A stretch of 64,000 nucleotides of DNA, taken from contig JAZBRS010000026.1 of assembly GCA_037176725.1 (NCBI GenBank), forward strand, positions 63,714,501 through 63,778,500. Reading direction: 5' to 3'. The position numbers were made by a program, and so were the translations under genes. Below are positions 1-47,975 of this stretch, piece by piece. The DNA is from Posidonia oceanica (Eukaryota; Streptophyta; Magnoliopsida; Alismatales; Posidoniaceae). Every line of letters starts with the position of its first letter. The first letter of the stretch is position 1. The notes beneath the pieces are model-generated. The model was not told the DNA's origin, did no database searches, and saw only the letters and a list, made by a program, of their open reading frames with translations.

Positions 1-1731
1 GCCCCGTCGAGTTTCCCCGAGCTTGGCAGTGGAGTGACATGCAGTTGGCTCTGGAGCGGCTTCGCCCTGTTAGGCATCTGGGCCGCTTCTTGTTAGAGAT
101 CCTCCTAGAGGAGTGGGTAAGTTTCAATGTTTAGTCCCTTCTTTCCCCGCACAGTTTGTTGGTTTCTGACTGAGTTGTGCTTGTAGGTCGTCTGGAGACC
201 CTACTCTAAGGATGAGCATGCCGCTGAGGAGCCCGTGATGCGTGGTTCCCACTTGTTTTTTCAGGAGTGCTGGATCTTTAGCCTCTTCCGGTGCTACTAC
301 AGCCAGGTGGGCCGTGTCCTGCGACAGTTTGGCCTTCGGCAGGTTGTCCCAGCGCCCGGTCCTGCGGATTGCTCTCTGGGATCTTCTAGGGGAGGTCGGT
401 CTGATGCTCCTCAACAGTTTGCAGAGCGGCTCGAGAACTGGCGCTCGGGTGGCACAGCGCCCCTTTCTGACGGTTCGGTAGAGACAGAGGCAGCGTGGAG
501 GACCTAGTTTGACTCTTCGTTTGATCATCTGATTGTCCTCCATCGTGCTGTCTTTTATGATCACTCCAACATGCTAATGGGCATTGGTCCTGGTGCGAGT
601 GTTGGTGACCTTCAGCGGGAGTTGGCGACTGCCAACAGCTGCATTGATGAGCTGGTAAGCAACTCCCTTTGGTGTTTTTTTATTTTACTGCTTATTTACT
701 TGTTCATTTGCTTACACATCTCCCTTGTTTGCACAAATGGCCGCTTCAGAGGGGATGACTGAGGCGTTCAGGACTCAGCAGCAGCAGCACTCCTTGAGAG
801 TCGTGGAGTTAGTGCGGGAGAGGGACGAGCTCTTGTCCCACATGGACGAGCTTCGAGCACGGGTGAGTCTCGTTTCCTCTTTTCAGTTGTTTGTGCCTAT
901 TCCTGCTTGTTTAACTGTTGTCTTTTGATGTAGGCCGAGGGTGCCTCGACAAGTGCAGAGCCTCCCCCTGCTGCTGCTGTAGAGCCAGTCCCTTCTCACC
1001 TTGGGGAGATGCTTGCTGAGGAGACGCGTGCCCGTGATTCAGAGGTATTTCTGCTCTTTTCCTTACTTTGAATATATGTCCTTGGGCTTACGTGATCCTG
1101 TTTTTCTCTGCAGATCCAGGCGATAATGGAGATGATTCACACCCCTCCAGCCATGGGTCCCACTCAGAGTCAGCTTGACGATGCCTTGGGACGTGCTGAC
1201 GAGTTACAAGAGTGCCTGAGCCAGCGCGAGAGCCGTATCCAGAAGTTAGAGGCTCGTGTGGCGACATCTGATGTGGCAGCGGCTAGGGCCCAGTTTGAGG
1301 CTACTTCCCTGAGAAGGGTATTTCTATTCTGTCCTTAACGCTTTAGTTGTAGCTAGCCTTTCTGTTTTCTATTTATAAACCGCTCTAATTCTATGATTTG
1401 TTTTATTTCAGTTGAGTGATTTCCATGGGCGGCAGATGCGGGAAATGGAGATACGGTTGATGCAGACAGAGACAGTGGTTGCGATAGTGCTGATGTGGCT
1501 GATCTGATGCCTGCCCCTGTTGCTGCAGCTCCTGCGGGGTCAGGGCATTCTAGGGTCTTGACGACTGAGCAGATCGTGAGAGCGCGGTCTTCTCCCCACC
1601 TTGAGATGGTTCGCTCCATCTTGAGGGAGTCTCGGGAGAGGAGTCGGAGTGGAGCGACGTCTTCTGTGGCGCAGCCCACGCCGAGGCCACCAAGCAGTGG
1701 ACGCAAGGGTAGTGGCGAGTCGAGTCACTGA
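1..1731 (+). pseudogene. Plant-mobile-domain / coiled-coil gene, multi-exon, antisense to element A, 5' end missing
   Basis: Six exons can be traced on the plus strand: 1-116, 187-654, about 737-862, 934-1044, 1114-1317 and 1412-1731. Introns are 69-94 nt, most with GT...AG ends (for example GTAAG at 117 and TGTAG at 186). Exons 1 and 2 encode the C-terminal half of a plant mobile domain, with a VVWRPYSKDE block and a GRVLRQFGLRQ block, the family's most conserved stretches. Later exons are Glu/Arg-rich and look coiled-coil (SQLDDALGRADELQECLSQR). A TAG at 505-507 interrupts exon 2, the acceptor before 737 reads CAA rather than CAG, and the last exon shifts frame near 1460-1470, so this copy is a pseudogene. 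It lies downstream of A's integrase on the opposite strand, like antisense extra ORFs reported in some Tat elements. A captured or unrelated host gene fragment is the alternative. The role of such proteins in retrotransposons is unknown. Confidence 0.7.
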
Positions 1732-3089
1732 GTCTGTGTTTGTTTCTGTCAGAGTCTGTATAACCATTTATATGAAATGAAATGCTCCCTTGTTTACCTG
1801 CACATGCTTACTTGTTTGTTAGTAATCACAAGACATACCTTTCTCGACAGAAGAATTGGCTAAGTTAAAAAAAGACGATATAACAAATGTGAATAAAACG
1901 AAAGCATACTTATTCTTGAAAAATGAGTGGAGAGAATTAATTTCTGGCCTCAGCTAAAGAGATGGAAAATCGGAGCCCAGTGGACGCTGATTGTGAGTCA
2001 TCCGTGGATGCTCTAAAGATTGTTGCCTAAGCAATGTCTTTGTTGAGAGAACGCACTCAAGCCGTGAGACACGCTTGAGTAGGACATTAACTCCGAATCT
2101 AGGTGGGTCGATTGTTGCATCATCAGCCAGATTAATTCCAGTTTTCCTACTTACTAAGTTCTCACTTGTAGGTAGGTTGGATGTTTTGGTTTCTTTGTTT
2201 TTTTTGTTTTTTTGTCTTTTTCTAGGTTTTATAATTTTTTGGTGTTTTGAGTTATGTGATTTTTTTGGATTTTGGGTTATGTGATTTTTGGATTTTAGGG
2301 TTGTATGATTTTTTTAGATTTTTGGGTTATGTGATTTTTTGGATTTTTGAGTTATGTGATTTTTTTAGATTTTTGGGTTATGTGATTTTTTTGGATTTTT
2401 AATTTTTCTAATGGCCTTGGGGTCTGTTTCAACCAGATGAGTGGGCCCTACATTCATGGATGTGTCCCTTAGGCCATGCCTGTACCTTTTAGAGACTTTG
2501 GTCCACACACCAGTCCTTACTTGGGTTGCTATTCCCTGGGCCTTTTCTATCCTTGACCACCTGGGGTTGCTTACTCCTTGCCTGTTGGTGGAAATAGGAT
2601 GGGGGAGGTTTTGGGATACAGTGAACTCTCGATTTTTGCTTAGGCCTTGAATCCCGCTTGCCGTTCTTTTGTCCTTAATGCGTCTTTCTAGGATTTATAC
2701 TTTTAAATGCATAGACAGCTTTTGCCATGCTCTTTTCTGCTCTTTGGACAGCTCTTTGCTGACCTCTTTTAGTTGGACAGTTTCTTTTTCTGTCTCTTTT
2801 CGTTTGCTCCTCACTTGGACAGCTTCTTTGCTGCCTTCTTTCCTCTCTATTTGGGTGGTTTTTGCTGCCATCTTTTCTGGACGCTTTCTAGATTACTTGA
2901 CAAGCAGTTTGTATTCTAAGCCTCTACTCCGAGCCTACCTTTCCTTTACCTCCCCGTGCAGTGTGTATGTGGAGACAGGTCAAGGCATGGGTCCCCCCTA
3001 GGTGTTCCTCTTCCTATTGGCTTTAGGAATCTCCCCTTTTCTGGCTTGGTGTTAGGCCCTAGGTGTTTTCAATGATATAAGCATGCTGG
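1732..3089 (-). other. Noncoding 3' region of element A, shared with element B
   Basis: No credible ORF. From about 1790 to 3089 the reverse complement aligns by eye with 53000-54390 of element B. Examples are the TAGAAAGACGCATTAAG block (2680s here, 53400s there) and the CGTGTCTCACGGCTTG block. The shared sequence lies between integrase and the extra gene in A, and between gag and the 3' LTR in B. Confidence 0.7.
2175..2410. repeat. AT-rich minisatellite, GATTTTTTGGATTTTTGGGTTATGT-like unit
   Basis: About 240 bp made of units of roughly 25-35 nt built from GATTTTTNGGATTTT and GGGTTATGT, five to six copies with length changes in the T runs. The matching place in element B (53690-53945) holds a different but related tandem repeat on the other strand, so the array mutates quickly at a conserved position. 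Confidence 0.8.
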
Positions 3090-4583
3090 TCAAGGGTAGT
3101 ACCTTTTCAGGTGCATTGCGTTCCAAGGGTCAGGAAGATCTGTCCTGTTCTGGGACAACCGATAGGCATTCCCTGGATATGCAGCAACCACTATGTAGGG
3201 CCCTTCCCAGTTTGACTTCAACTTTCCCTTAGGGTGGGACTTATTGTAAGTCACCACTTCTTTAAGCACCAGATCACCAATATTAAACTTGCGTTCAATT
3301 ACTTTCTTTTGGTAAGCCTTGGTTAACCTTTGTTGGTAGACACGCATATGCTCGGCGGCTGCCAGCCGTTTCTCATCACAAAGTTCCAAATGAAGGAGTA
3401 AGGCTTGCCTCTTTTCTTCAGGAGACATTCTCCTGTCAATTTTAACTCTTAACAAGGGGATCAGGATCTCGTATGGGACCACTGCTTCCATACCAAAGGC
3501 TAAAGCATAAGGGGTTTGACCCGTTGCTGTCCTTATGGTGGTGCGGTATGCCCATAATGCATTAACAAGCTTATCTAACCAATCCGATCTCTTAGCGTCT
3601 TCTATCATCTTTTTAATGATTTTGATTAAGGTCTTATTAGTAGCTTCTGCTTGGCCGTTCCCTTGCGGGTAATACGGGGAAGAGTGGTGTAGAGTGATAC
3701 CAAATTTTTGGCATAACCGCTTGAACTCTTCTGAGATGAAGATTGGTCCGTTGTCAGCTACTAAGGCTTTAGGCACCCCGAACCTTGCGATGATATTCCA
3801 TTGCACGAATCGGCATAGGGTTGTGGCCTTGATGTTCGCAAACGCCTCCACTTCTGCCCATTTGGTGAAGTATTCCGTCGTTGTTAGGATGAAAGTGTTG
3901 CCTTTTCCCTGATGGATGGGTCCCACCACATCGAAGGCCCACATAGAGAAAGGCCAGGGTGTTGATAAAGCGTGAAATGCTGAAGCTGGAGCATGAATCT
4001 TGTTGGCGTGCAGCTGGCAGCTCTTGCACCACTTGACTTTACTTGCACAGTCAGCTTCCATGGTAGGCCAGTAATACCCCCTTCTGATGATCATCTTAGC
4101 CATGAACTGGGAGTTGATGTGGCCCCCGTAGACTCCCTCATGTGTTTCCTTGAGAATCTCGACTGACTCAAATGCATCCACACATCGGAGTTCAATCCCT
4201 AAGGGTGTTCTCCGGAAGAGTGTGTTGGCTCTGATGTAATACTTCGTAGCCATCCTCCTTAGTGCTTCTCTGTCCTTGGGAGTTGCATAGGTCGAGAAGG
4301 TACGATCTTGTCCATAATTCTGTATGTCATAATACCACGGGTTGCCATCGTCGTTTACTTCTGTAGCTCCTTGATAACAAACCTCTGTGCAAATTAAACT
4401 TTCCTGGTTTAGTCCCTCTCTGAGTTTTTGAACCCATTCGGCAGCAGACTCCACTGTTGGTGTGCTGATTTTTCGCACTGTGATGGATTGCTTGTCTGTC
4501 CCTGAGCTGAAGGGGAGCGAGGATGCCAATGAGGCCAGTGAATCAGTCAGGATGTTGTTGCTTCTAAGTGCGTGCACATACAT
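3090..4583 (-). CDS. Element A integrase, with tail of the second RNase H
   Basis: 497-residue open frame. The first 27 residues are the end of a Tat-type second RNase H (MYVHALRSNNILTDSLASLA). Then comes an HHCC zinc-binding segment (HEGVYGGH ... CKSCQ) and an rve integrase core with its triad visible: Asp in WAFDVVGPIH, Asp in VADNGPIF, Glu in GQAEATNKT. The C-terminal part contains FNIGDLVLKEV and ends DPWNAMHLKRYYP. There is no chromodomain, as expected for the non-chromovirus Tat group. The protein would insert element cDNA into the genome. The domain is intact here, although the frame upstream is broken, so it could not be made as part of a full polyprotein. Confidence 0.9.
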   Translation of the reverse strand: MYVHALRSNNILTDSLASLASSLPFSSGTDKQSITVRKISTPTVESAAEWVQKLREGLNQESLICTEVCYQGATEVNDDGNPWYYDIQNYGQDRTFSTYATPKDREALRRMATKYYIRANTLFRRTPLGIELRCVDAFESVEILKETHEGVYGGHINSQFMAKMIIRRGYYWPTMEADCASKVKWCKSCQLHANKIHAPASAFHALSTPWPFSMWAFDVVGPIHQGKGNTFILTTTEYFTKWAEVEAFANIKATTLCRFVQWNIIARFGVPKALVADNGPIFISEEFKRLCQKFGITLHHSSPYYPQGNGQAEATNKTLIKIIKKMIEDAKRSDWLDKLVNALWAYRTTIRTATGQTPYALAFGMEAVVPYEILIPLLRVKIDRRMSPEEKRQALLLHLELCDEKRLAAAEHMRVYQQRLTKAYQKKVIERKFNIGDLVLKEVVTYNKSHPKGKLKSNWEGPYIVVAAYPGNAYRLSQNRTDLPDPWNAMHLKRYYP

Positions 4584-4905
4584 AACCCTGTCGAATTTCT
4601 TCAGTAAGGCTTTAGCTAGGTTGCAGTATTCCTACAGCTTTGGCGAGAGGGTCTTGTATTTGTTGAGGACTTGCTGTATGACAAGCTGTGAGTCTCCCAC
4701 AACTTTTAGTCTTCTTGCCCCTAGATCGAGAGCCATTCGGAGCCCTAGAATGAGTGCCTCATATTCTGCAATGTTATTACTTGCTGAGAAGAGTAGCTGG
4801 GCTGCAGTGGGGAGAACAATACCCTCTGGAGTGAGGAGTGTTGCCCCTATTCCAGCACCCTATGAGGAGGGTCCATTCTCTGATGAGTAGCATGACATTA
4901 CTAAT
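4584..4905 (-). pseudogene. Element A second (Tat-type) RNase H, broken
   Basis: Between the first RNase H and integrase, the minus strand encodes GAGIGATLLTPEG, NNIAEYEALILGL and VVGDSQLVIQQV. These are the DEDD-region blocks of the extra RNase H that Tat-lineage plant retrotransposons carry after their original one. It is broken twice: a frame change near 4860-4890 at the start of the domain and a stop codon at 4632-4634 (CTG TAG GAA). The domain is thought to degrade the RNA strand of RNA:DNA hybrids. Element E has the better preserved copy at 56692-57527. Confidence 0.8.
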
Positions 4906-5736
4906 TGCCAGTATTTCCTGGTCTGGGAAATCTGTTGATACTGGCTGATATTCCGACACAGGTAGCCTGGCAAGTTGATCCGCAATAGCTTGCCCCTTGA
5001 CTGCCTTCTGAGTGATGAACTGCAGGTCGAACTCAGTGAGGAGCATTTGCCATCGTGCTAGCCTTCTGGACAATGCAGGTTTCTCGAACATGTACTTGAT
5101 AGGGTCCATCTTGGCTATGTAGCAGACTTTGTGTGCCAGAAAGTAGTGTCTGAGCTTCTGTGAGGCCCATACTAAGGCTAGGCAATGTCTCTCAATCTGA
5201 GAGTACTTCCTCTCGTATTCAATGAATGTCCTACTGAGGTAATAAACCGCTTTCTCCTTCCTTCCAGTCTCATCGTGTTGTGCCAGGACAACACCCACTG
5301 AGTTATCAGTGACGGCCAGGTGGAGTAGCAATGGCCTCTCGGGGACCGGAGCAGTCAACACTGGAGGGTTGAGGAGGTAAAGCTTTAAATCATCGAAAGC
5401 CTTTTGACAGGTATGATCCCACTTGAATTCCGTGCCGCCTTTTAAAAGCCCATAGAATGGTCTACACTTCTCCGCATGCTGAGAGATGAATCTGCAGATA
5501 AATTGTAGCCTCCCTATGAGTCCTCTGAGCTCCTTGATATTCTTTGGAGGCGACATGGCTGTTATAGCTTTAGCTTTGGTGGGATCCACTTCTATGCCTC
5601 TTTTGCTCACTATGAAGCCAAGTAGTTTTCCGGCAATGACCCCGAAGACACACTTCTTGGGGTTCATTCTGAGGTTGTACTGGTCTGCTCTCTGGTGTAC
5701 TCTTTCCAGTGCTTCAAAGTGTCCTTCTCTTGTTTT
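4906..5736 (-). pseudogene. Element A RT thumb/connection and first RNase H
   Basis: After an in-frame TAA (5737-5739) just behind the YVDDLLVK active-site block, the frame continues with MNPKKCVFGV and GFIVSKRGIEVDPTKAKAI, the RT palm/thumb boundary. Next come IGRLQFICRFI (thumb) and the RNase H start RPLLLHLAVTDNSVGVVLAQ, then KAVYYLSRTF, ERHCLALVWA and QKAVKGQAIADQLARLP. The frame is lost near 4880. Neighbours are RT (upstream) and the second RNase H (downstream), as in an intact Tat pol. Confidence 0.87.
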
Positions 5737-6726
5737 TTATTTTACTAACAAGTCATCCACATAGCACTCCATGCAATCATGTATCATGTCGTGAAAGATT
5801 AACATCATAGCCCTCTGATAGGTGGCTCCAGCGTTCTTTAATCCGAACGTCATGACTACATAGCAGTAGGTTCCCCATGGAGTGGTAAATGAGGTCTTCT
5901 CCTGATCTTCTTCTGCGAGTTTAATCTGGTTGTAACCAGAGAAACCGTCCATGAATGAGAGCATCTCATGGCCTGCAGTGTTGTCTATGAGGATGTCTAT
6001 ATGTGGAAGAGGGAAATCATCTTTTGGACATACTTTATTGAGGTTTCTGTAGTCAATGCACACGAGCACTTTGCCATCTTTCTTCATTACTGGAACTATG
6101 TTTGCAATCCTTTCCGGATATACTACAACTCTGATGAACTTTGCTTTTTGTAGCTTATCTATCTCTTCTTTGACTTTTAGAGCGAGGTCTGGACGTAGAC
6201 GCCGAAGCTTCTGCTTTGCTGTCTTAGCGCCTGGCTTGAGAGGGAGCCTGTGCTCCACCAGTAGTGAATCAAGCCCGGGCGTTTCTCCGTAGGAGAAGGG
6301 TAGTACCTTCACGTATCTTTTGAGTAGTTTCTCCATTCTGAGTCGTTCATCTGAGTTGAGGGCAGAGCTTATCCGAACTAGTCGTGGAGCATCTTCAATC
6401 CCTAGATTTATTTCTTCTGTTTCTTCAGCGGCAGCCTTGGTCTGCTCATCATATTTCTTCATCATCTCTTCGAAGATGGCAGGGTCCACCGGTTCTTCTT
6501 CATCTGGGTCTTCTTCTGTGTCCACCAGATTGAAGACTTCGTAGTTACCAGTATTTTTATAGGTGATATTCGACACTTCTTCAACCAAGAAGATGGCGTG
6601 CGACGTGGCTAGCTCCCGTGGTAACACCGTGGTATAATGACATATCCTGACTGTTTGGGTGATTGGCTCCTTCCTGTTTTGGCCTGCACGCTTAGTAGAG
6701 TGATTAGATACTTTTTGTGAGGACAT
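5737..6726 (-). pseudogene. Element A reverse transcriptase
   Basis: The N-terminal part is an acidic linker with DTEEDPDEEEP. RT blocks follow in order: KPGAKTAKQKLRRLRPD, VMKKDGKVLVCIDYRNLN, CPKDDFPLPHIDILIDNTAG, SFMDGFSGYNQI, FGLKNAGATYQRAM and the catalytic YVDDLLVK. The wording of these blocks, especially DDFPLPHIDxLxDNTAGH, is that of Ogre/Tat elements. The frame ends at a TAA directly after the catalytic block. I chose the ATG at 6726 as the downstream side of a noncoding-looking spacer; the translation upstream of it does not resemble protein. RT sits in a different frame from gag-protease, which fits splicing or frameshifting between them. Confidence 0.88.
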
Positions 6727-6919
6727 GGTGGCGGTTAGGCCATCCCTGCCATGCCCTCGGCTACCTTCCCCACTATTAACTAAACTAGGAAATAAATTAC
6801 CGGAAAGTAAATTATGCGAAAATAAAATGCAGGAATTGAAAGCGGGAAAGAAATTATTTACAAGAGTGGGGATTGCCCCTAGGTTTGCCTCCACGGTGGA
6901 GGCGGTGCGCCATCGGGCG
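6727..6919 (-). other. Noncoding-like spacer between protease and RT, candidate Ogre-type intron
   Basis: The protease frame stops at 6920 and RT resumes one frame over at about 6726. The minus strand between contains an AT-rich stretch with CTTGTAAATAATTTC (possible donor, GT at 6861/6860) and several acceptor-like sites (TTTCCTAG, TTTAG, TTAATAG) near 6775-6790. Ogre elements are known for an intron in exactly this position. The stop at 6920 lies upstream of this donor, so either the stop is a later mutation or the true donor is elsewhere. Confidence 0.45.
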
Positions 6920-8518
6920 TTAGTCTGTGGCCCCGGCCCCTTCTTGCTCAAAGGGGCAAGGCCGTAAGTCGCTGAAGAGACAGGTGAGCTCGCAGACGGG
7001 GTCGGAGTCTTCTGCTTCAGTGCCTTCAGTGGAGGTTCCGGAGGAGTCGTTTGTTTGGACGTCCAGAGGCATGGGAGCTTCTGAAGAAGTGGGGAGAGTA
7101 GCAGGGACCTCTTTTGTGCAAGAGGTTGGTGCTTCTTTCTCGAGCTTCATCAGAGCGTTGAGGATGACTGGAACTTCTTCTGGATGGGGAGAAGGAGTTG
7201 GTGCCGTCTCGGGATCTGTAAGAGTGCCGAGGATGACGGTCTTAGAGGCTTCTTTAAGGCGGTGAGAAGAAGTTGCAGCTGTTGTTGTTACTGGGAGGTT
7301 GGGAACCGTGTCTGACACTTTTTTGTCGTGCACTTGTATCCCAATTGATATGAAGTGGTTGGCAAGTGACCACGCTAGAGGTCTGCTTGGATCTGGATGC
7401 CCAAGGTACCCTAGCCCGGTACGACTGCACTCCTCAGGTGTTTCGAGCGCGTCCCTCATTCCTTGCTCTTGGCGGCCGAGTCCTTTCCCTGAGGTGTACC
7501 CTATCTTGAGGAGAATCTCCCATGGCCTTTTCATGTGGTCCGGGTAATCGTATTGATTCATATCAATACTCCGGGGAGCAAAGACTTTCTTAACATTGTT
7601 TATGGCTTCGGCAGTGGAGTCCTTGACTGATGGTGCCGGAGTGGTAGTTGGGATTGTCACTAGGTGGGCTTCCGCCTCTACTGGCTCGTCTCCCAGTATT
7701 TTGATGATCTTCCCTTGGTAAGGGAACTTCATGCATTGGTAGCGCTGGGAGGTGACCGCCTTGATCTCTTCAATCCATTGGCGCCCCAGGATGAGTAGAT
7801 ACGAGATTGGGGCATTGACTATTATCAATTCTATTTCTATTTGGAGAGGGCCAATGGTAACTCTGAATGTGATTTTCCCCAAAGCTGTTTTCTTGTTGTT
7901 GTCGTACCCTGATACAATTAAGGCCGCTGGGCATAATTGAAACTCTGTTAGCCTAATTAACTGCAGGGTTTCTAGGGAGCATACATTTAGAGTTGCCCCT
8001 GTATCCACAAGCACACCATAAAGTTTATAATTGTTTATTACAATGGTAACACTTAATGGTAGAGTTCTTCTTTCAGGAGGAGCTAGCTCGGAATCAGTGA
8101 AGAAAACCGTAGGCTCTATGAACACGGTAGCGGCAACGGCTACCAGAGTTTCAACGGGTATGTCCTCCGGTACTTGGGCTTTCTTCAATACCTCTATCAG
8201 GATATCTCGGTGCTTCTCTGAGGCCCTGATCAGCTCGTAGATAGAGATCTTCGCTTGTGTCTTCCTGAGCTGCTCCAGGATGTCGAAGGTGCCTTCTATT
8301 CTCCGAGGTATGTGGAACTCTTGGCGAGGCGGAGAAACGACTCGTTCTGCATCAGGTGGAGGCGATGCGACTTGGTTGGAGATCTGCCCTGTTCTTGTGA
8401 TGGGGGCTTGCTGAGCTTGATTGTGCCCTTCCCTAGCGTAGCCAGACTTAAGCAGAGATAGAGGTCTTCTGAGGAGAGACTGCCCCTGATTTACGGGCAG
8501 CTGAGATGAACTCAGCAA
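6920..8518 (-). CDS. Element A protease 2 with G-patch domain
   Basis: 532-residue open frame. A helix block ISIYELIRASEKHRDILIEV near residue 95 matches ISIWDLIHTSAEHREAFLRV before the protease of element C. A retropepsin-like domain follows (about residues 140-290) with the active-site block LVDTGATLNVCS near 170 and the C-terminal LLILGRQW. Around residues 335-385, GYTSGKGLGRQEQGM and RTGLGY form a glycine-rich G-patch, a presumed nucleic-acid-binding module also found in Tat gag-pro. The C-terminal 150 residues are Thr/Pro/Ser-rich. It is in the same frame as gag and protease 1 upstream, separated from protease 1 by one TAG. Confidence 0.85.
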   Translation of the reverse strand: MLSSSQLPVNQGQSLLRRPLSLLKSGYAREGHNQAQQAPITRTGQISNQVASPPPDAERVVSPPRQEFHIPRRIEGTFDILEQLRKTQAKISIYELIRASEKHRDILIEVLKKAQVPEDIPVETLVAVAATVFIEPTVFFTDSELAPPERRTLPLSVTIVINNYKLYGVLVDTGATLNVCSLETLQLIRLTEFQLCPAALIVSGYDNNKKTALGKITFRVTIGPLQIEIELIIVNAPISYLLILGRQWIEEIKAVTSQRYQCMKFPYQGKIIKILGDEPVEAEAHLVTIPTTTPAPSVKDSTAEAINNVKKVFAPRSIDMNQYDYPDHMKRPWEILLKIGYTSGKGLGRQEQGMRDALETPEECSRTGLGYLGHPDPSRPLAWSLANHFISIGIQVHDKKVSDTVPNLPVTTTAATSSHRLKEASKTVILGTLTDPETAPTPSPHPEEVPVILNALMKLEKEAPTSCTKEVPATLPTSSEAPMPLDVQTNDSSGTSTEGTEAEDSDPVCELTCLFSDLRPCPFEQEGAGATD

Positions 8519-8527
8519 TGCAGGCCT

Positions 8528-9135
8528 CTAAATCTGGGTACACCCTTGGATGGCTTGAACATCTGTAAGCTGCTGAAATCCTTGGATGCTTGGGGCTTCA
8601 TCATCCCAGTCATCGGTCCAGCCACCTGTGCCATCTGGTGATGAACTTCCCATGTGAAATCCCGTTAGATAGGGTCTCCAGATCACTTCCAGGGCTGTTT
8701 CATGGTCTGCTTTGATGGTGATCACCTCCCCTTGGAATTTGAACTTTAAGAGCTGGTGTGTCGGGGATGCGACTGCACATATCTCTGCCAACCAAGTTCT
8801 TCCTAGGATTAACAGTTCTGCCAATTCACACTCCATCACCATCACCTTGGTAATGCTGGTGAGGGGGCCGATAGTAATTGCTAGCTGAACCGTCCCTATC
8901 ACCTCTGTCCGACTGTTATCAAAGCCCTTGCAGAAGATCTTTTCCTTGGTGATTTCTTCTTCTCCGACGTCCAGGTAGTCGAGTGTGTTTAAAGAGCATG
9001 CACTGTGACTAGCCCCTGTGTCTACAAGTATGTCGGGGAGAAGGTAACCATTGACTTCTACAGTGATCACTAAGGGCCAGAGTTGTTCCTTTGGAGTGGG
9101 TAGTTCCGAGTCCTTGAAGACTATATTCCTCCGCT
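8528..9135 (-). pseudogene. Element A protease 1 (tandem retropepsin-like domain)
   Basis: A second complete retropepsin-like domain lies upstream of protease 2 in the same frame. The start DSELPTPKEQLWPLVITVEVN parallels DSELAPPERRTLPLSVTIVIN of protease 2. The active site is ILVDTGASHSACS and the end is ELLILGRTWLAEI. It is followed by an acidic, Gly/Ser-rich linker ending at a TAG (8528-8530). Usual Ty3/gypsy elements have one protease domain. The parallel layout argues for tandem duplication followed by divergence. Both copies keep the catalytic Asp-Thr-Gly. Whether one unit acts as the dimer partner of the other is unknown. Confidence 0.8.
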
Positions 9136-10122
9136 CGTATCCTTTGATGATCTCTTGGGCTAGTTCAAAGGGATCTGCCTCGCCATTCTACTCTTGGGGT
9201 TGACCTTCTCCTGGGAGGAAATTGAAGTATTTGAGGAGCTCCAGGTCATTTGCCTCGCTTTCTCTGTCTTGTATTGCTTCTATTGGGAATTTCCATTCTA
9301 CGGATCCCTGTTCAGAGCATATCTCAAACTCATTGCTTTCCGTAACGGAGGAAACCAGCTCCAGCTCTCATTCGAGTAGGCAAATGGACACGATCTCGGC
9401 CTCTGATGGACTACCTTCTGCTTCCAGGTACACCACTAGATGATTAGGCAAAGGGTTCTAGTGTATTTGTAACTTGTGTTGTCCTGTCCTGGCCTCTTTC
9501 AACCTATCTTTGAGGGCTGACCACATTATTTCTCCCTTGTCATTTAGATCATATATTCTGTCCTTTAACACATAACATTCCTCGAGTGTGTGCCCATTTT
9601 TCTAGTGATATGCACAGTACTTGGACATGTTCGTGTTGGGGGCGTTTGGCTTTAGCACTGGGAGTTGCAAGTCCCCACTTTCAACCAGCATTCTGAAGAT
9701 GTCTGGAATTGTCTCTAGAAGTGGTGGGTAATTCTGTCTTCTTGGTCCTCTAGGTGCCTGTGGTGGAGGAGCATTGTGGTAGTCCCTCTACCCTTGTGGT
9801 GATGCTTTGTATTGATTATTGGTTTGCCCCTATTGGGCATTTATTGGGGAGTTAGAGTGTTGGGATTGGAACTGTTGGAGTGGCTGCCTCTGCTGTTCTG
9901 TTTGTTGATATTGAGGCTGCTGGAAATGTTTCCCCTTCCATCCCCTTTGGTTCTGCGTGGTTAGCTGTGCCATGCTGCTAGTGACACCTTCCATTGTATG
10001 CCCCGCAGTCTTCTTCCAGTTCTTTGCTTTGAGCTCCAGGAATGGTAGCTCTTCTTTGTTGCGCATCACTTTTGGGGCCCCTCTCGTATAATTGCGAATA
10101 GGTGTGGAAGTCACCTACCAAC
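9136..10122 (-). pseudogene. Element A gag C-terminal part and gag-protease linker, broken
   Basis: The minus-strand frame encodes KEELPFLELKAKNWKKTAG and a Gln-rich stretch, then YPPLLETIPDIFRMLVESGD and a zinc knuckle CAYH-x4-H-x4-C, followed by DLNDKGEIMWSALKDRL. Element B has the same protein at 51360-51977. The frame is cut by stops at 9830-9832, 9788-9790, 9602-9604, 9458-9460 and 9189-9191 and by a TGA near 9372; at several of these B has Gln. Gag would coat the element RNA and form the particle. The N-terminal part is missing because element E is inserted at 10123. Confidence 0.8.
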
Positions 10123-18379: not shown

Positions 18380-19582
18380 CTAGTCGATCCGAGCTTTCTT
18401 TGCCTTTCTGGAGGCAGGGAACTGGGGAGCGCCAGGAGGTATCTCACTGATGGGCCAGAATGCTTGTACCTCCGTCAGATATTCAGGAGTGCATCCCGAG
18501 CCTTGCGCAGATGCTAAGTCAGTAGATCGCACCCCATGCTGCATAAGATCAGCCAGCTTAGCTGTAGCAGATGTTGAGCCGAATGGATATGTCTGGAGAA
18601 GCCTTAGGGCTGTGCTGTCTATGAAGGCGCCTTGTTGGAGGTCGAACTGCCGCATGACCCGGATGGGATGATACTCCACGCCTCTGGTGAATCCAGGCAG
18701 CACCACAAGTCGCGCATCGCAGGTGTCGAAGAAGATACTAAAAGGCTCAGCTGCAGATGGAATGATGCGCCATGTGACGGTGTCGTCCGTCAGCTCAGAT
18801 AGTTTCTTGTATTCTTCAGGGACGCTCTTGATTGTTCTGGCGTGACCGCTGTTGCAATATGCCTCAATAACGTTGCCCCGAGGGCGCAGTATGTTCAGTT
18901 CAAGATATGCAGCCAGCCAGATCTGCACTAGCACTCCACAGCCGTGGAAGTGGCGGCAGCGGTGAGAGATGTGGTCCAGCCCTCAGTATGTCTCAGCCAA
19001 GACAATTGGTGTCAGGTCTATCTGCCTAGTCACCACAGCTAGTGCGATTTCAGCAATTTCTATCGCAACTGTCATCCGGCCATGAGTGAATATTAGCTCT
19101 CCAAGAAATCGGGTGACAAATCCCCGAAGCCACAGATCATCTCCGAGCTCAGCACGCTTGTCTATGATCTCATCAAAGTAATGTAGGCGCAGCATGGGCG
19201 TGAGGCTGCTAGTGCGGATCAATCTTTGCTGGCACCGGTCAGTAGATAGCCTAGATAGTTTGCAGAGGACGGCTATGTACTTGTCACGCCTCATGAAGAT
19301 GGGCGGTCCCATTAGCCGGGAGAAGCCACAGATGCGACGCACCTCTTCCAGTGTTGGTGTCAACTCTATCCTTCCGAAGCGGAAGACATGGTGCGCCGGC
19401 TTCCAGAATCTTGCGGCAGCGCACAGAAGGTGTCGGCTTACTTCGACATCAGCCGCCTTCAGCAGTTTTGTTGGTATGCCCCAGAGGCGCAGCTTTTCGC
19501 AGTCTTCCTGGGTAAGCTTGCCAATCCAACCCCGTAGGGCTTCAGAATAGTGCACTGGAATATCAAGAGTAGGATAACCCAT
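18380..19582 (-). pseudogene. Extra ORF of element E: plant-mobile-domain-like (DUF7745-type) protein
   Basis: About 400 residues from the ATG at 19582 (a GTG at 19594 is in frame upstream). Blocks in order: YSEALRGWIGKLTQEDCEKL, KLLKAADVEVSRHLLC, HVFRFGRIELTPTLEEVRRI, FLGELIFTHGRMTVAIEIAE, PIVLAETY, RCRHFHGCGVLVQIWL, LTDDTVTWRIIPS, GVEYHPIRVMRQFDLQQGAF, and a basic tail ending SRKAKKARID. The blocks TPTLEE, LAETYHGLD and the late RQF motif are those of the plant mobile domain-related family I know as DUF7745; the name is from memory. It lies downstream of integrase in the same orientation. One in-frame TGA (18983-18985) breaks it; C has His there. Function unknown. Confidence 0.72.
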
Positions 19583-19972
19583 GGCGCAGGCCACAGGGTG
19601 AAACAGACAGATGCTGCAGATTCTCCAAGGTACCTGTTATCGATGCTGTAGATAGTCAGATTACTCAAGCATATAATCTTTAACTGAAAACAGAATCTGA
19701 AGCTGGTAAAGCAGTTCAATAGATATTTAGCAGCTAATATCAGAACAAAGCAGCTAAGCACACATAAGCAGGGGAATTCTGTTGATGGGGGCAAGGACTG
19801 GCAGGAGATCTGGACCAACGCAGCTCGAGCGACGTCAATGCGTGCTTGGCAAGAGCACTGTCTCAGAACCGAGGCAAGTTGCAGATTGGAATGACTGGAA
19901 AGAGGGAAGAGATGATTGGGAGATGCAGGTATGCATGATGCAGGTTGATATGCTTGGGATGTGATTAGTATG
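19583..19972 (-). other. Spacer upstream of the extra ORF (element E), with conserved acceptor-like site
   Basis: The minus strand carries GATAACAG/GTACCTT near 19630. C has GATAGCAG/GTACCTT at 34848-34862, 40-50 nt before the ORF. A segment near 19800-19880 would encode RAALVQISCQ, which C also encodes near 34680. These may be a splice acceptor and an upstream exon of the extra gene, or simply conserved noncoding DNA. Confidence 0.4.
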
Positions 19973-19977: not shown

Positions 19978-21879
19978 TGTTGACACCCCATCTTGGCAGG
20001 CTTGGACCACTTGGAGCCCTCCTAGTGATTGCTGGACTCAAACCTAAACCAAAACCAAACCCTAACCCTTTGCTTTACCCTTCAAAACCAAGCAAACTTG
20101 ACCTAAGCCTTCACCCCTCTTCCCAAGCTCAAAACCTAACCAAAATCCATAGGAAAACCCACCAACACCCACTTAGCAAACCTACCCAAGAACTTAGAAA
20201 ATCTCAAACCTAGACCGTTCCCAAAAACCCTAGAAAACCTAGGTGAAACTACCCTTTTTCTACACCTTGAAACCCCTCTAAAACCTTCTCAGAATCAAAC
20301 CAAAACTTCAGAACCAATACCTCAAACCCTAGACTGCCCACTCACCAATTTTCATCCCATTCCAAGACCTTTAAGACCTCCATTCACTCAAATTATCCTT
20401 TTCTCTCTCCTCTCTCTCTCTCCTGATTATCATCTCTCTTTTCATCCCCTTCTTACCCTTTCTCTGGTCTGGCTGTGGGCCCCCCTCTATGCTTCTGTCC
20501 TTCCTCTATCTTATCCCTATTTTTACTTTATTTTTAGCATTTTTTCTGAATTTTAGAAATCATTTTCCTCCAACCTATCTCTTTTCCTTTTATCTCCCTC
20601 TTTTTTCCATTTCTTTCCTCCTTCTCTTTTCCTTTTCTCTCTTTTGCAAAAATCCATAAAAACCCCTAAAAATCTGTAAAACCCCAAAACATAAAAGAAA
20701 CAAATCAGAACCCTAAGAAAAACAATGAAAAAACATTAAACAAGCAATTAAAAACCTAAACCTAACTAAATCAAGCTAAAAGGAAAACCAAGCATGTGAG
20801 CTAAAAAATGCAAAACAAATCAAAAGAAAACACTGAAAAATCAAGGAAAAAACTAAAATGAAATCAAAACCCACCCAAAAGTAAAAACCTCATCAGAAGA
20901 ATTAAAAAACAAACATTAAAAAGAAGAATCAAAAAACAAACATTAAAACAAGTAATTAAAGAAGCAAAAGACTTAACCTAACAAACCTAAGAAAAAACAA
21001 ATTAAAAAACTTAATTAAAAAGGAAAAGAAAAACACATTTGAAAGACTTAAAAACACCCCATCAAACCAGAAAAATCTAACTAAAAACTTCAAGAAAAAT
21101 CAACAAATAAAAATCAAAGCATAATTTAAAAGACTTAAGAAAGAAAAAACCCTAAGAAGACTAAAACTTAAAAACCTAAAAACAACCCTGGTTAATACGA
21201 AAATAAATCCTAAAAAAACCTAATCAATATCCTAAGTATCTAACAAGGGAAACACAATTTTTAAAACAATTTAAAAAAAAGGTTTAACAAACATTTAATC
21301 AAGTGAAAACTAATTAAAAGCAAAACCAAAGCCCTAAAACCCTAATCAAACCCAAAACAGACTAATTAACCCCAAAACGGTCATTAAAAATCTAATTAAA
21401 ATCCTAATTCGCAACACAGCCTTCCTAGTATTTTTTACTTATTTTTAGTTCCTTTTTACTATTTTTATTTTCCCATTCTACCCTTTCTTCTTTCTTACTT
21501 CTCTTTTTTTTCTTTCTTTCCTTTCCTTACTGGGCCCAATCCAGTCCGTTTTTCTTTTTTTCTTTTATTTCTTTTCTTTTTTCCTTCGGCCCACAGTCTG
21601 GCCTCCTTCTTCCTTCTTCTTCCTCAACCTTCTGCATTCCTTTTTTCTTCTCTCCACCGTTTTCTCCCGCGAGCAGCCTGCAACAGAGTTCCCTCCATTG
21701 TTTAAATTCGAAGCTTCCATCTTTTCAACCTACAGCAGCTCGCCGCCTCTCTTCTATCTCAGCACCAATTCCGGGAGGCATTCAATGCCCGTCGTCCCGC
21801 CGACACCCATCTCCTCAGCTGCAGTGCGTCGCCGTTGAATTCAAAATTCCAGCGCGCGCACCGGCAGCTTTCCTCCTGA

Positions 21880-21885
21880 TATAAG
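21880..21885 (+). promoter_or_regulatory. Possible TATA box of the C LTR (TATAAG)
   Basis: CTCCTGATATAAGCCTCCAG sits 3' of the CT-rich block and 5' of a GAGAGTGAGAGAAGCAGAG leader-like stretch, in both LTRs (41261-41266 in the other). Plant TATA boxes lie about 30 nt before the start site, which would fall near 21915. The RNA would then have a very long R-U5 of about 4 kb; not proven. Confidence 0.4.
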
Positions 21886-23369
21886 CCTCCAGTCATCCCT
21901 TCCTTCGGGCGGCCCTTTTTGATCATCCAGAGAGTGAGAGAAGCAGAGCCCATCAGTTAGCAATCAGCAACCTGAGAGAAAAACCAGAATTTCAGTAGCT
22001 TTCTCCATCTGAACGACCTCCTCTTTCTTCCTCTGTATCCTCCAATTCCCAGGGAGAAGAGCCCGAGAGAGAGAGCCTGAGAGTGTGCTTTGGCATCCCA
22101 GAGAGAGATCGCAATTCCAGGGCCTTTCCCCATCAGAACCTTCTCCAATTCCTTCCACCATCTTCAGCAGATCCTTCTCCTCTTTTGCCAGTAACCCAAA
22201 CCCCGTCCAAGCCCCAATTTCTCTCCCATTTGATCCCCCAAGCTCACCCAGTAACCCTGCATCCTTCCATCACCACTTCACGGCCATTCCACCCCTGAAA
22301 CCATCCCAAATCACCCTCAGATCACTTGAAACTCCAACTGTAAACCCAGCACAACCCACTCCAGAATTCCCTTCACTCCAGTCCACTGATTTCTTCCAAA
22401 CTCCACCCAGAGATTCACCAGACCATTACCTTCCCAGAGCACCTGACATCAGACCCAGCCATCCACCACAGACCGAGAATTCCACAACAAACACCTGTCT
22501 TCTCCACTGACCAGAAAATCAACCGAGCTCCGAACCTTCTCCACACTCTCCGGAAATCCCATCCAGCAATCCAGAACCGCTCTCCGAACCTCCAGCAACC
22601 TCCCGGAGGGTCCCATCCAACCAGACGAGCAGCAGACACTCCCCCCAACCCCCGACTGTTTTTCTGAACCCACAGAGTGCCGGATTTCTCTCCGAGCTCT
22701 GAAGCTTCCATCCAACCGACCGGGAAGCACCGGAAGATCGCCCTGAAGCAGCTCCAGCCCTCGCGAGCAGCCGGCGACGCTCGCAGCGACCGGACGACCC
22801 CCACCGGCCACCTCCGGAACTGCTGAGGTCGGGAGGACACCTCAGACGCGGAATCAGGTAAAATCTCCTTCCCTTAGTCTTCTTTTCTTCCCGCGATGCT
22901 TCTCCACCCTTTAGGATAGCGTTTCCAGTCCTCCTGCTCCGTCGCCGTTCGCCGCTCCGGTCGTCTTCTCCGGCCTTCACGGCGCTCCGGCCAGCGGAAC
23001 GTCGCCCCGGTGACTCCCTCAGCTCCGCACGGACGCCAAGAGGCTCCTCCGGTCTTCGGAACGCAGCTCCGCTGCGTCGAACGGCCGGACCAAGCCTCTG
23101 AGTCTCCGCAGAACTCCGGCAAGCGCTCCGGCGCGATCCAGGCCACGTCGTCCTCCACTGATCGCCGCCCTGTCTCCGCCAGCTCCGGGAGCACCTCCCC
23201 TGCCGTCCAGCGCCTCCTCAACAGCCCTGTGCCGGCGGTCGCGGGCACTGGCAGCCTGCTGCTACAGTGCCCACGGCCGTCGGCCGTTTACTGTTTAGTT
23301 ATTTTTCTATTAATATAGTTTGCTAGTAAATATTGCATGTTTAGCTTAAGTTTTCTTATTTTTGCATTC

Positions 23370-24330
23370 TGGTCCTTATGTCATTTAATTTGCTTAGTTT
23401 TTAATTCAAAACCATGCTAAATTGCACTAAGTATTCCTGTTTTTCTGTATTTTCAAGTCAGTCCATTTACTGTGCATTCCAGTTATAATTTTTTACGTTT
23501 TAGCCCCTCTGTTTTTAATTTTTGCATCCAGGTCCTGCAGTAGTTTATTTAATTTAAATGCATGAACTTTGTCTTATGGTATTGCATTCTGAACCCCTGT
23601 TTTTTCTCTTTTTTGCATTTTCATCCTCTGCACTGTAGTAACTTAGGTTTTATTTTTTATTTTTGCTTGTTGCATTGCATTTTCTTCCCTCTGTTTTCTG
23701 ATTTTTGCATGTAGGTCCATTTTAAATGCACAGTAACCATTTTGCATGCATATTTAGCTTATTAAATTGCATTTTTCCCCCTGCATATTGTGAAAATTGC
23801 ATATCAGTCCTTTATCTGTGATTTCAGAGCATGTTTTACATATAAAATTGCATATTTGACCCCTGCATGATTCAAAAATCATACATAGGTCCTTGCATCC
23901 TTTAAAAACCATGTAAAAAGACTGTTTTGCCCCTAAAGTTGCATCTTAGCTCCTATGCTTACAAAATTGCATGTAGACCCTCCACTTGCATCCCCGGACT
24001 CCCCAGAACCCAGTTTTCTGGAAAATTTACACTTTAGACCCCAATTTTTTCCAAAATTGCACTCTGACTTCTTTTGTTTTCAAAACTTCTTCCAATGCAT
24101 ATCCTCTTTTCAAAATAATTTTCTGAGCCCAGTCTTTTGCAAAATAAAGCCCTGCCCTCTCTTGTTTTCAAAACCCTCCTCTGTGGCCCCCATCCTTTGT
24201 GAAAACTAGCATTTAGCCCCTTTTCTTTTTCAAAAATGCTTTTGAACTCCTGTCTTTTCCAAGTTTTTCCCCTTGTCTTTTCTTGCTTGTGCATGCATTC
24301 TGCATCCATTTAGTCTTGCATTTTAGCATC
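23370..24330 (+). repeat. Spaced TTGCATxTAGGTCC motif repeats in C 5' LTR
   Basis: TTTTGCATCCAGGTCC, TTTTGCATGTAGGTCC, TTGCATATCAGTCC, CATACATAGGTCC and similar blocks recur every 30-60 nt. This is the reverse-complement counterpart of 11870-12880 in E. Confidence 0.6.
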
Positions 24331-25034
24331 CTTTTGCACACACTAAGCACCCTTAGCTCCCCTTCACTTGGGAGGACCTTTTGCACACCCCTAGGACCTC
24401 CTGAACACCTAGATCTGTTCTTCTCCCCTGTTCTGGCCTTTCTGCCTTGAAGCTGCGATATCTTCCAATCCGGCCGTTGGATCTTCTCAAGCAAGCTGCT
24501 CAAGCGACCGCAGCGAAGCGCTCTTCAGCATGGACTAGACAGATCTCAGATCAGGCTCCCGGATTTCCAGGTATGTCCTTCTGAACCCCTGCATTGCATT
24601 CATTTGCATCCCATTTGCATAGTTTTCCTCGTTTTCGATTTCTGTCTCTTTGAGCATGTAGAATAGGACCTCCCCTTTCTGCTCGGCAACTTAGATCCCC
24701 GTTTCGCGTTTCCCCATGTGTTTTGTGTTGAGTTTTCCCTGGATTTACCACTTAACGTGACTTTCTTCCCCCTTTTCCACGATTCGATCGCATCGCGAGC
24801 TTTGGGCAGCGTGCGAGACACACAGTGGAACGGTTTAGTGGAAAACGGTCACAAAGGAGTGGTAATCCCTCCGTTTGCTCACTCTCCCCTTTGTAGGTCT
24901 TCACACCTACTCTGTGTGGCCCCGAACAGCGCCTGTTCTCACACATGCGTTGTTCTACTTCTCCTTTTACTGCTTCTAATCTTTTCCTTGCATTTGCATT
25001 CGCACGGCTTTTCCGAGGTTTTATCTCGCTGCTT

Positions 25035-25265
25035 TTGGCACCGTTTTGCGTGCCCGCTCTCGTTTTGGCACCGTTTTGCGTGCCTGCTTTGTCTTTCGCG
25101 CCGTTTTGCGCGCTCGCCCTGTTTTTGGCACAGTTTTGCGTGCCCAACATCGTCTTTTGCACCGATTTGCGTGCCGCCTTGCTTTCTCGCCCGTTTTGCG
25201 TGTCGATCCTGTCTTTTTGCACCGTTTTGCGCGCTTTCTTGTTTCTTGCCTCGTTTTGTGTGTTT
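25035..25265 (+). repeat. About 30-bp array CACCGTTTTGCGTGCC in C 5' LTR
   Basis: Eight diverged units with the core GCACCGTTTTGCGTGCC and TTTxTTGGCACC spacer. It is the same array as in E (10835-11125) and in the 3' LTR of C (44415-44650). Confidence 0.88.
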
Positions 25266-25534
25266 TACGCCATTTTCTCTCGCATGTCGATTGCATTGCA
25301 TGGTTTTGCCGTTGTTTTACTTTTTCGCTTGCATTTGCATATAGGGCTGTGATGCTTACTGCCTGGAGTTCTCACAAGCCAGGTTTCGCTCGGTTCGGAA
25401 CACAGACAGCGTAGCTGAGCACTTAGAGAGCATGTTTACTTCCTTACTCTGCATCCTCCCACTTAGAGCACACCTTGAGCATTCATTTAAGCATTCATAG
25501 GCACATAGGTATTCAAATCTGCATTTTCCCGCGT

Positions 25535-25620
25535 ATGCGAGCGTAAGCCTAGAAAGACCGATTCTCGGGCGTGTCGGGGGTGCCTAACACCTTCCCCGCA
25601 CGTAACAGGAGTCCTTGTCC
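25535..25620 (+). promoter_or_regulatory. Conserved U5 block with GGTGCCTAACACC stem-loop (C 5' LTR)
   Basis: GCGTAAGCCTAGAAAGACCG through GTAACAGGAGTCC is nearly unchanged between C and E, while flanks differ. The pairing bases are GGTG at 25579-25582 and CACC at 25588-25591. Confidence 0.6.
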
Positions 25621-25918
25621 TGTCTTTTGACCCGCAATGACCATACTGCCCTTATCCTAGGCTAGAGTCATCTCTTTTGCATGTATTTGCATTTGTTTTC
25701 CCTTGCATTGCTTTGCTTTACATTTCTTGCTTGGTTTTGCGTGTTAATTCACGCATTTCCCCCGATTTTCCTTGTCTCCCGTTAATGGACATGGTGGCGA
25801 CTCTGATTTGTCTTATCTTTCTCTTTTCTCCTCGATTTTAAGTGTTTTCGAGTTGAGCCTCTTCCTCGGATCCAATCGCCGCTAATAGCGAGCCTGATTC
25901 CGATCGGGATTGCTACAG

Positions 25919-25936
25919 TGGCGACTCTGCTGGGGA
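25919..25936 (+). promoter_or_regulatory. Primer-binding site of element C
   Basis: TGGCGACTCTGCTGGGGA begins 2 nt after the LTR end CTACA. From memory, plant tRNA-Arg (ACG) ends CCCCAGTGGAGTCGCCA, whose complement differs from this site at only a few bases. Ogre elements are reported to use tRNA-Arg. Confidence 0.85.
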
Positions 25937-27391
25937 TGCTAGACTCCAGCTTTTGCCTTTGTTTTCGCTCGCTTGCTTTGCGTCTTTGTTTGCCTTTGTG
26001 CCTTTGTCTGCCTTGTCTGTTTGCTTGTCTGCCTGTGTCGACTCCCAGCGAGTCGCACAGTGGCGACTCCGCTGGGGAGAAGTAGACTCCGGCTTTCGTT
26101 CCTGGCTTTTCTGCTTGCCTATTTTGCAGCCTTGTCTGCCTTGTGTGCCTTCTTTGCCTGCTTTGCTCGCTTTTCTGTGCAAACTCCTAGCAAGTCGCTT
26201 CGTGGCTACTTTGCCTAGGTTTTGCACCTCTTTCGCCTCGGTTTGCGCTCTTTTTGCTTAGCTCTACTTCTGTGCTTGTTTATTTACTTGTTTCCCTGCT
26301 TCTGCTTTTACTTCCTTTACCGCTTGCTTGCCTTTACTTGCTTTGCCTAAATTGCTCGTTACTGCTTTAGTTATCGCACAATGCATGTCTACATACTTGT
26401 TTGGCAACGATACATGCCTTTTGAATGTCGAATGCTTCTTTTACACCTTTGCTATGTCACTACGCACACACATACCTTGCATACATGCCTTTTGACTTGA
26501 TGAATGTTTTTTTTTCTTCACCATCATGCTCACAAACACCTGCACATGCCATGCACTTGTCTTTTGCTGTGTTGTATGCTATTTGCCTGCCATGTCTGAC
26601 TGATTTTCTTCCCTTTCGCTCATGCCATGCCTAGGATAGTAGAGACTTGTCTGCTCTCCCCATGGTTAACTAAAAACCGCAAGTAAAAAGAACTTCTAGG
26701 AGCAACTAGAGACTCTGAACAATCCTTCACTCCCTTTGGCTAATAAAATGTGCAAGATAAAAAACTTTAATCATTTGCATAAGCATCATATAGGGCATGC
26801 ATTCTTCTCATCTGAGTCCACCTACTAGTCTGCGAAGGACGGTCCCGACCTCTTGTTCCACCGCTTTGGGCGTGGCACGAGTCAGTCGGTCTGTCCCCCC
26901 TCGTCCGGGGGTCGTGTCAGTGTTAGTAGAGGGTACCACCCACGCTTTGGCGGGGTAGAAGCCACCAACGCACCACCCTGTCATTACCTGAGCTTTGGGC
27001 CGGGAGTTAGACAGGGGACCTACTTTTTCTAGCCTGAGTCGGTGACCCGTACACCCAGGGATACCCGAAGTAGATTACCTTGCTAGGAAACACTAGTTAG
27101 GTAAGGGGGGCATGCTAGAAAGCATACATATCATTCATGCCATTTAACTAACTCATTTGCATTCATCTTTTTAGTTTCTAACCCCTAATTTCCTTCTGTT
27201 GTGTCAGCGTGATCGGTAAGCGAGTTTCCCTTTGCCAGAGCTCGAGTACCGACCCTCGTTGACGCTCCTGTTGCGACTTTATTCGCGACCATTCCCTTTC
27301 TGAGCTATCCGCCTTTGCGAAGATAGCTCCTCTTAGGAATCACCGCTTGAACACCCGTCGCAGCCCTGTTCTCACGCACTCTAGGTCAGCA
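25937..27391 (+). other. Untranslated leader of element C
   Basis: 1.45 kb without a credible ORF: CTTG/TTTGCC-rich to 26640, then a GC-rich segment 26840-27080 with CGGTCTGTCCCCCCTCGTCC and CCGGGGGTCG, which could fold strongly. The function is presumably RNA packaging and translation control, by analogy only. Confidence 0.6.
26061..26078 (+). promoter_or_regulatory. Second, PBS-like copy in the leader of C
   Basis: TGGCGACTCCGCTGGGGA, preceded by ACAG as at the real site and followed by a similar AGACTCCGGCTTTCG / AGACTCCAGCTTTTG stretch. About 140 bp of leader looks duplicated. The two copies differ at one position. Confidence 0.75.
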
Positions 27392-30271: not shown

Positions 30272-30292
30272 AAGAGCCAACCTAAGGCAGAC

Positions 30293-31549: not shown

Positions 31550-32548
31550 GAGTCAGAGACACTCCTTCTGGCAGAATCAAGCAAGCAACCAGCGGTCACA
31601 GTTACATCAGTGCCACTGTCCCTCTCTGGAGGGGCAGTTAATCAACTCAGTCAGCAGCGCGGCTCAGCCCGCTTCAGCAGCCACATCTCTAGGAATGCAG
31701 CCGGCGCAATCCGCTTCGCATCCTCCTGACAACCAGCAGCAGCTCTCATGGCAAGACCCCATGGCGTCAGAGGCTGCACTCTCTCAGCTACGGCCCGATA
31801 CAAAAGGCCAACTGAGCACTACACTCTCTGGGCCCTTGAGCCCTCTAAAGAGCACGCCTGCTTACCCTGCAACAGTGACCCTGGCAGCTTATCCATCTGT
31901 GGTACCGCTGACATGTCTATTTGGGCCTTCTACATCAGAGTTGCCGCCATCGGACGCGCCCGTGAACCAAATCATGCAGATTCCAAGGGCAGCAATCCGT
32001 CATGCAGCCGGGCCAGTGCCGCAGGCCCCCGGCGCCTACTACGTCGACTCCCCCTTAGACGAGGAAGAAGAAGTGGCGATAGAAGCCCAGGTCAATTCTT
32101 GGATGTCCGACTTAGAGCTACTTTATCAAGAACAAATCAAGTCGATAGCAGAAGACCTGGCAGAGCATCGAGCTGCAGAAAGGAAAGGGAAAGCCGTGGT
32201 TACGGACCCTCCTCTGCAAGAAGACCATGCCTCTATCATGGTCCTGGAAGAAGCCTCGGCAGCACCAGACTCCCCTAGACCAGATGAGCTCATCACTCTC
32301 CAATCAGAAGGCGGGTCTAGGTGGTTTGTGCAACGCATGCCTCACCGGGGCAGCATAGCAAGCGGCAATGCCCAAATCAGCCGCCGGTCCGGCATACCCT
32401 CCACAAGCACACTGGAAGACCCAGAGGAGGAAGCATCAGCAGTGCAAGCAGCAGCAGTAACAGAGCAGAAAGCAGAATCAGTAACAGAGCTGTCAACAGC
32501 CTCAGCAGCAGAACAGTCAGCAATTTCAACAGCAGAATCAGCAAGGCC
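31550..32548 (+). pseudogene. Element C protease-RT linker
   Basis: A low-complexity Ser/Ala/Gln/Pro stretch, then YYVDSPLDEEEEVAIEAQVN, SWMSDLELLYQEQ and GSRWFVQRMP, all of which E also encodes (59640-60000). The main frame shifts near 31620 relative to the protease. No enzyme domain is recognised. The acidic ESARP end is joined directly to integrase sequence at about 32548 through a deletion. Confidence 0.75.
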
Positions 32549-37862: not shown

Positions 37863-37866
37863 TCAA

Positions 37867-47935: not shown

Positions 47936-47975
47936 AGAAATTTCTATGTGTTAACCACCCACACCCCTTGGAGTC

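Follow-up and report, generated by a model that had tools for sequence, protein, structure and literature searches.

The left end of the window, that is, the whole stretch of Posidonia oceanica DNA analyzed here (64,000 nucleotides), carries a gene with exons and introns on the plus strand, which is followed by the pol region of a long terminal repeat (LTR) retrotransposon, element A, on the minus strand. This part of the window contains the following features.

3..116, plus strand: exon 1, incomplete at the left end of the window, covering positions 206-238 of the plant mobile domain (PMD) profile
117..186, plus strand: intron 1, phase 0, GT..AG; the PMD score is 23.0 bits for exon 2 and 29.1 bits once exon 1 is joined to it
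187..654, plus strand: exon 2, which holds the remainder of the PMD match, with an in-frame stop at 505-507 and eight relatives
655..751, plus strand: intron 2, phase 0, GT..AG, weak acceptor
752..862, plus strand: exon 3, from the exon model and the codon score
863..933, plus strand: intron 3, phase 0, GT..AG
934..1044, plus strand: exon 4, from the exon model and the codon score
1045..1113, plus strand: intron 4, phase 0, GT..AG
1114..1317, plus strand: exon 5, with the best heptad-like (coiled-coil) stretch of the gene
1318..1411, plus strand: intron 5, phase 0, GT..AG
1412..1507 or 1412..1731, plus strand: exon 6, with an in-phase end at 1505-1507 and an overlapping frame that is open until a stop at 1729-1731
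1732..3089, no strand assigned: spacer between the gene and the integrase of A, with T-rich tandem repeats; 1765 up to 3097 aligns with the inside of element B
3090..4631, minus strand: integrase of A (rve and Integrase_H2C2)
4635..4859, minus strand: second RNase H of A (RVT_3, E=7.2e-13), with a stop in or after the domain
4777..9187, minus strand: RNase H (within 4777-5736), RT, G-patch and protease-like region of A

Element A appears to be an old and broken Ty3/gypsy element, which we would assign to the Tat clade, Ogre/Retand type, because its second RNase H sits between the RNase H and the integrase, an arrangement that is a mark of angiosperm Ogre and Retand elements (PMC6317226). Its 5' end is unseen since the sequence of another element, D, starts next to it at ~10177. 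Two protease-like matches are found on the minus strand of A, at 8786-9067 (E=5.7e-5) and 7772-8047 (E=0.0063), which are ~1 kb apart and both under the cut-off.

In our exon-chain model, the plus strand from 3 to 1731 consists of at least six exons and five introns, every one of which is a phase-0 GT..AG intron of 69-97 nt (n=5). None of the five can be read through in frame, since each contains an in-phase stop or has a length that is not a multiple of 3. The acceptor of intron 2, which ends in ..CAGAG, is poor. The start of the gene lies beyond the left end of the window because exon 1 is incomplete and the PMD match opens at profile position 206 of 347, and further exons may be present on that side. 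Since the longest exon is only 468 nt (the longest open plus-strand frame in 1-1731 of the present copy being 106 codons), the gene escapes two published surveys of open reading frames (ORF): it has no uninterrupted ORF that attains 250 codons (PMC6317226) or the 600 bp mainly used elsewhere (PMC11963269), both of which are survey thresholds rather than biological criteria.

Exons 1-5 are distinguishable from the introns in composition. With a codon score trained on the usage of element C of this window (2166 codons), exons 1-5 reach 6.4 bits in the model frame, against -79.8 ± 11.0, with a maximum of -45.3, for 1000 shuffles. Among the three plus-strand frames, the model frame ranks first in all five of these exons, while in exons 3 and 4 one minus-strand frame outscores it. 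Base composition varies with codon position in exons 1-5 (p=1e-9) as opposed to the introns (p=0.11), and T content is 47% in the introns versus ~24% in exons 1-5 (p=2e-16). Exon 6 is less regular, with the model frame beaten by four of the five other frames in 1412-1480; in 1486-1728 it is the best plus-strand frame, yet two minus-strand frames score higher. The first-pass annotation had described six GT-AG-spliced exons opposite to the pol of A; the five introns and exons 1-5 are borne out, but for exon 6 to extend to 1731 the frame has to change.

A second test, based on chain length over 506-1800, is a weak one: the best chain scores 180, compared with a mean of 102 (SD 26, maximum 226) in 200 shuffles, and is exceeded by at least 12 of 178 comparison segments, 10 of those 12 being intron-free. 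This best chain includes introns 3-5 only and starts inside intron 2. Such weakness, together with the poor intron-2 acceptor, the frame change in exon 6 and the minus-strand frames in exons 3 and 4, is what one would expect if the exon chain were an artefact of a GC-rich and then T-rich non-coding stretch. We consider this very improbable in view of the codon score and the introns without periodicity, to which are added a PMD match that runs across junction 1 and the existence of relatives of exon 2.

The PMD match is best appreciated when exons are compared singly and joined. Exon 1 alone has no match to the PMD profile (PF10536) and exon 2 alone scores 23.0 bits from profile position 239, while exons 1 and 2 joined score 29.1 bits (E=7.4e-7) over positions 206-319, with no gap at junction 1. 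The proposal that this gene encodes a plant mobile domain followed by coiled coils is thus upheld as to the continuity of the match, but 29.1 bits, like all scores of the gene including the 27.1 bits of a longer query, is lower than the Pfam curated cut-off of 34.9 bits, profile positions 1-205 of 347 falling left of the window. P0006, a relative that is pre-labelled PF10536, nevertheless scores 24.4 bits against the same profile. As for the coiled coil, the signal consists of a home-made heptad score, which has no null, and of Pfam matches under the cut-off. Transposase_28 (PF04195) has no match at E up to 1 in the part of the gene inside the window, the N-terminal part being outside. Intron 2 (655-751), when read in phase with exon 2, yields a hydrophobic, membrane-helix-like stretch, and it was considered as coding because this frame is open in several relatives. 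We have set this candidate aside since T-rich introns yield such residues anyway, and there are gaps in P0007, P0008 and P0009; the hydrophobic reading is probably mere T-richness.

The present copy of the gene is a pseudogene, with a TAG stop at 505-507 inside exon 2 and, in exon 6, an in-phase stop at 1505-1507 beyond which 1731 can be reached only in another frame. With exon 2 as a query against assembly proteins, 8 of 45 candidates match (E 9e-75 to 2e-40; identity 63-85%); they lie on contigs of 531-1664 bases, taken from ENA assemblies, that presumably represent plant DNA within these assemblies. At the position of the 505-507 stop of the window, all eight have an open frame, although they are predicted ORFs, so that openness at this site was already selected for. 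Past the end of exon 2, the seven relatives that reach there all continue with V[S/N]N, which is consistent with a GT donor, and P0004 displays a read-through of intron 1 into VVWRPY. Exon 2 aligns with the window without internal gap in five of the eight, with one gap run in P0006, P0007 and P0008, while P0007, P0008 and P0009, out of seven, each show a gap run in intron 2. No further relatives were detected in viral contigs with exon 2, the exon-2 alignment or the RNase H piece of element A as queries, nor in plasmids and prokaryote genome contigs, and the longer spliced protein matched none of 7989 scored candidates of the protein collection at E<=0.01.

How these relatives differ from the window bears on whether the gene acts through a protein. 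Identity in exon 2 and in the intron-2 read-through, respectively, is 0.77 and 0.71 for P0004, 0.72 and 0.77 for P0005, 0.71 and 0.64 for P0009, 0.86 and 0.94 for P0010, 0.71 and 0.71 for P0011, and 0.65 and 0.39 for the more distant P0007; P0008 has five intron residues and P0006 none. Since the near copies are equally alike in intron 2 and exon 2, they lend no support to recent protein-level selection, and this is also what would be seen if the gene acted via antisense RNA, by double-stranded RNA or small RNAs, instead of a protein. There are precedents for such a role, namely the phased small RNAs that tea PMD genes produce from 175 loci (PMC10673657) and the antisense RNA effects discussed in a review (PMC7264820). 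However, exons 1-5 are codon-like in composition and P0007, at a greater distance, keeps the frame of exon 2 (0.65) as opposed to intron 2 (0.39), which makes a purely RNA-based action improbable and a long-term coding constraint on exon 2 plausible.

We then come to the question of whether the gene belongs to element A. It is on the plus strand while the integrase, which ends at 3090, is on the minus strand, and it is therefore antisense and beyond the integrase, the strand arrangement of the antisense ORFs known as aORF-3R or eORF-3'R. The 3' LTR of A would be left of the window, and none was found in 1-3100 by alignment with element B and its LTR. Element B is as follows.

47218..56686, plus strand: element B, with LTRs at 47218-48658 and 55240-56686 that are 95.8% identical, and imperfect flanking repeats

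Element B, which is without a recognised pol domain, looks like a non-autonomous relative of A. The stretch from 3097 to 1765 aligns at varying identity with 52994-54372 of B, which is inside the LTRs of B. The first-pass annotation had named an LTR of A or an element boundary within 1732-3089 as a sign that the gene is external to A; we looked for both and found a spacer that aligns with the interior of B instead. The LTR of B scores 17.5 against 1-3100 in the orientation of A, below the maximum of 21.0 of 15 shuffles, and 25.5 in the opposite orientation, compared with a maximum of 19.0 of 15 shuffles, a score that we have tentatively taken for T-rich sequence. T-rich tandem repeats of ~25 bases are present in the spacer at 2184-2402, and the corresponding region of B is also repetitive. 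The gene may lie between the integrase and the 3' LTR of A, the latter being outside the window.

The gene itself has no counterpart in B. There are ~870 bases from 54373 to the 3' LTR of B, and a comparison of 54355-55238 with 1-1788 gave no gene copy scoring above shuffles (15.5 vs 19.0 and 14.0 vs 18.5, with 30 shuffles each), while in B 51945-53105 is without pol-like matches to A. A tblastn search with the gene protein found no match better than E=1.3 outside 1-1731. Either B lost the gene or the line of A gained it, and since B is a relative of A without it, the gene would be dispensable in cis and perhaps variable within the family. This opens the possibility that a single copy of A captured, or happens to adjoin, a host gene or one from a different mobile element, which would be no regular part of the A family. 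The A/B alignment ends at 1765, shortly after the gene does, introns are normal in host genes and the 3' LTR of A is outside the window, all of which would fit a capture, as would the CpG observed/expected ratio of the gene (0.64, as opposed to 0.34-0.54 in the rest of A), which could reflect a separate history. We nevertheless consider capture unlikely because the eight diverged relatives of exon 2, although known without their surroundings, suggest a repeated family, and because antisense ORFs at the corresponding place, past the integrase, are the rule in related elements (PMC11963269).

The PMD is also found in two other elements of the window, C and D, where it is encoded in the sense orientation.

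18380..19636, minus strand: sense PMD of D, in two pieces (PF10536, E=0.0026 and 9e-7, neither piece reaching the cut-off)
19980..45298, plus strand: element C, with LTRs at 19980-25917 and 39342-45298 that are 98.6% identical by self-comparison
34853..36007, plus strand: sense PMD ORF of C (PF10536, E=2.3e-18, 67 bits; PF24924, E=1.6e-14), with the match in one open frame

Element C is a 25-kb element with 5.9 kb LTRs, gag, G-patch, integrase, the sense PMD ORF and tandem repeats. Element D, a related element on the minus strand, appears to be interrupted by C and B, and its PMD in two pieces is related to that of C. The PMDs of A and C have only a ten-residue block in common (BLASTP, E=0.044). 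The PMD of C gave no match to solved structures (best E=0.88), and its AlphaFold model has a mean pLDDT of 43. Among 21 relatives of the C PMD, P0030 has a 24-residue insert after ALVQ, the first residue of which is V and the last, next to VW, is Q, and P0024 diverges at that same site. Together these look like a retained phase-0 intron that is absent from C and D. Ten of the 21 relatives cross the site without insert, and the remaining nine either stop at this point, fall short of it or are unaligned across it.

A possible basis for the difference between sense and antisense PMDs is the strand on which they are written. Introns of an antisense gene would survive reverse transcription because the genomic RNA, which is made from the other strand, does not have them as introns; in the sense orientation, a gene of a retroelement can have no introns except where splicing is incomplete, a constraint from which an antisense gene is exempt. 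That antisense introns escape loss in retrotransposition had been argued already in the first-pass annotation, and the logic is sound; the sense PMD of C, which has one open frame over the match, agrees with it. Elements C and D are to be taken as an illustration of this strand rule rather than as a test. The rule predicts introns in PMD genes that are antisense to pol and none in sense ones.

The explanation that we favor is that A carries an accessory gene opposite to pol, between pol and its 3' LTR, with at least five introns. Its promoter would be left of the window and its end would face the end of pol near 1731-1790. The plus-strand transcript would be spliced and would yield a protein in which a coiled coil comes after a plant mobile domain, while the genomic RNA from the other strand would keep the introns of the gene through reverse transcription. 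The product would be a nuclear protein acting in trans on the silencing of A, for example as a competitor of the host PMD proteins MAIN and MAIL1, which work with PP7L in transposable element silencing (PMC8616336). We give this explanation as a whole about an even chance (roughly 50%). The anatomy, that is, an antisense multi-exon accessory gene in A, is probable, while a role of the product as a modulator or decoy in silencing, although the one that we favor, is doubtful; counter-silencing by PMDs carried on transposable elements has already been proposed (PMC8616336).

Were genes of this sort a standard component of such elements, writing on the opposite strand would be a way for retrotransposons to carry spliced genes, and their antisense genes would be undercounted wherever uninterrupted ORFs are tallied. 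It might even be, as a tentative generalization from sequence, that Tat-clade elements keep a class of intron-rich antisense genes which ORF surveys missed, the sense copies of the domain, as in C and D, having been purged of introns. Since intron positions can be compared, this also bears on whether host or retrotransposon PMDs came first.

A spliced antisense gene is known from another retroelement, HTLV-1. This gene, HBZ, starts in the 3' LTR region. It is, like the gene described here, an antisense gene of a retroelement, and its product is nuclear (PMC11963269), but protein and host are unrelated to those here. Closer at hand are the aORF-3R or eORF-3'R of the Tat clade (Grande gene23, RIRE2, Retand), which are likewise on the strand opposite to pol and downstream of the integrase. 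Grande gene23 has its own promoter and encodes a nuclear protein (PMC7264820). However, these are described as open reading frames, with no introns mentioned in the excerpts at hand, while the gene of A has introns. In recent Retand elements, antisense coding regions occur in all clusters, and Transposase_28 is present in 97% (PMC11963269); this is the usual domain of Retand, while the part of the A gene inside the window gives a PMD-like match.

The occurrence of a PMD inside a Ty3/gypsy element is shared with the extra ORFs of Ogre and with the PMD-A clades. A PMD is present in 57% of Ogre elements (PMC6317226), the PMD-A1/A2 clades are exclusively Gypsy-encoded (PMC5418596), and the PMD was the commonest atypical domain in another survey (PMC9289625). 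The PMD ORFs of Ogre differ, however, in that their survey took ORFs from 250 codons upwards, to be compared with a longest exon of 468 nt here. Ogre also offers an intron that occurs naturally within this clade, the gag-pol intron (PMC6317226, PMC12786077), but this is on the genomic strand and is kept by incomplete splicing, while in A retention would stem from the choice of strand. Among the open-access literature matches listed, as far as their excerpts go, none describes introns in an antisense gene of a plant LTR element. The review cited above recommends that antisense and spliced transcripts be examined (PMC7264820). Antisense genes and the PMD are thus already known in such elements, and it is the intron-rich antisense form that appears to be new.
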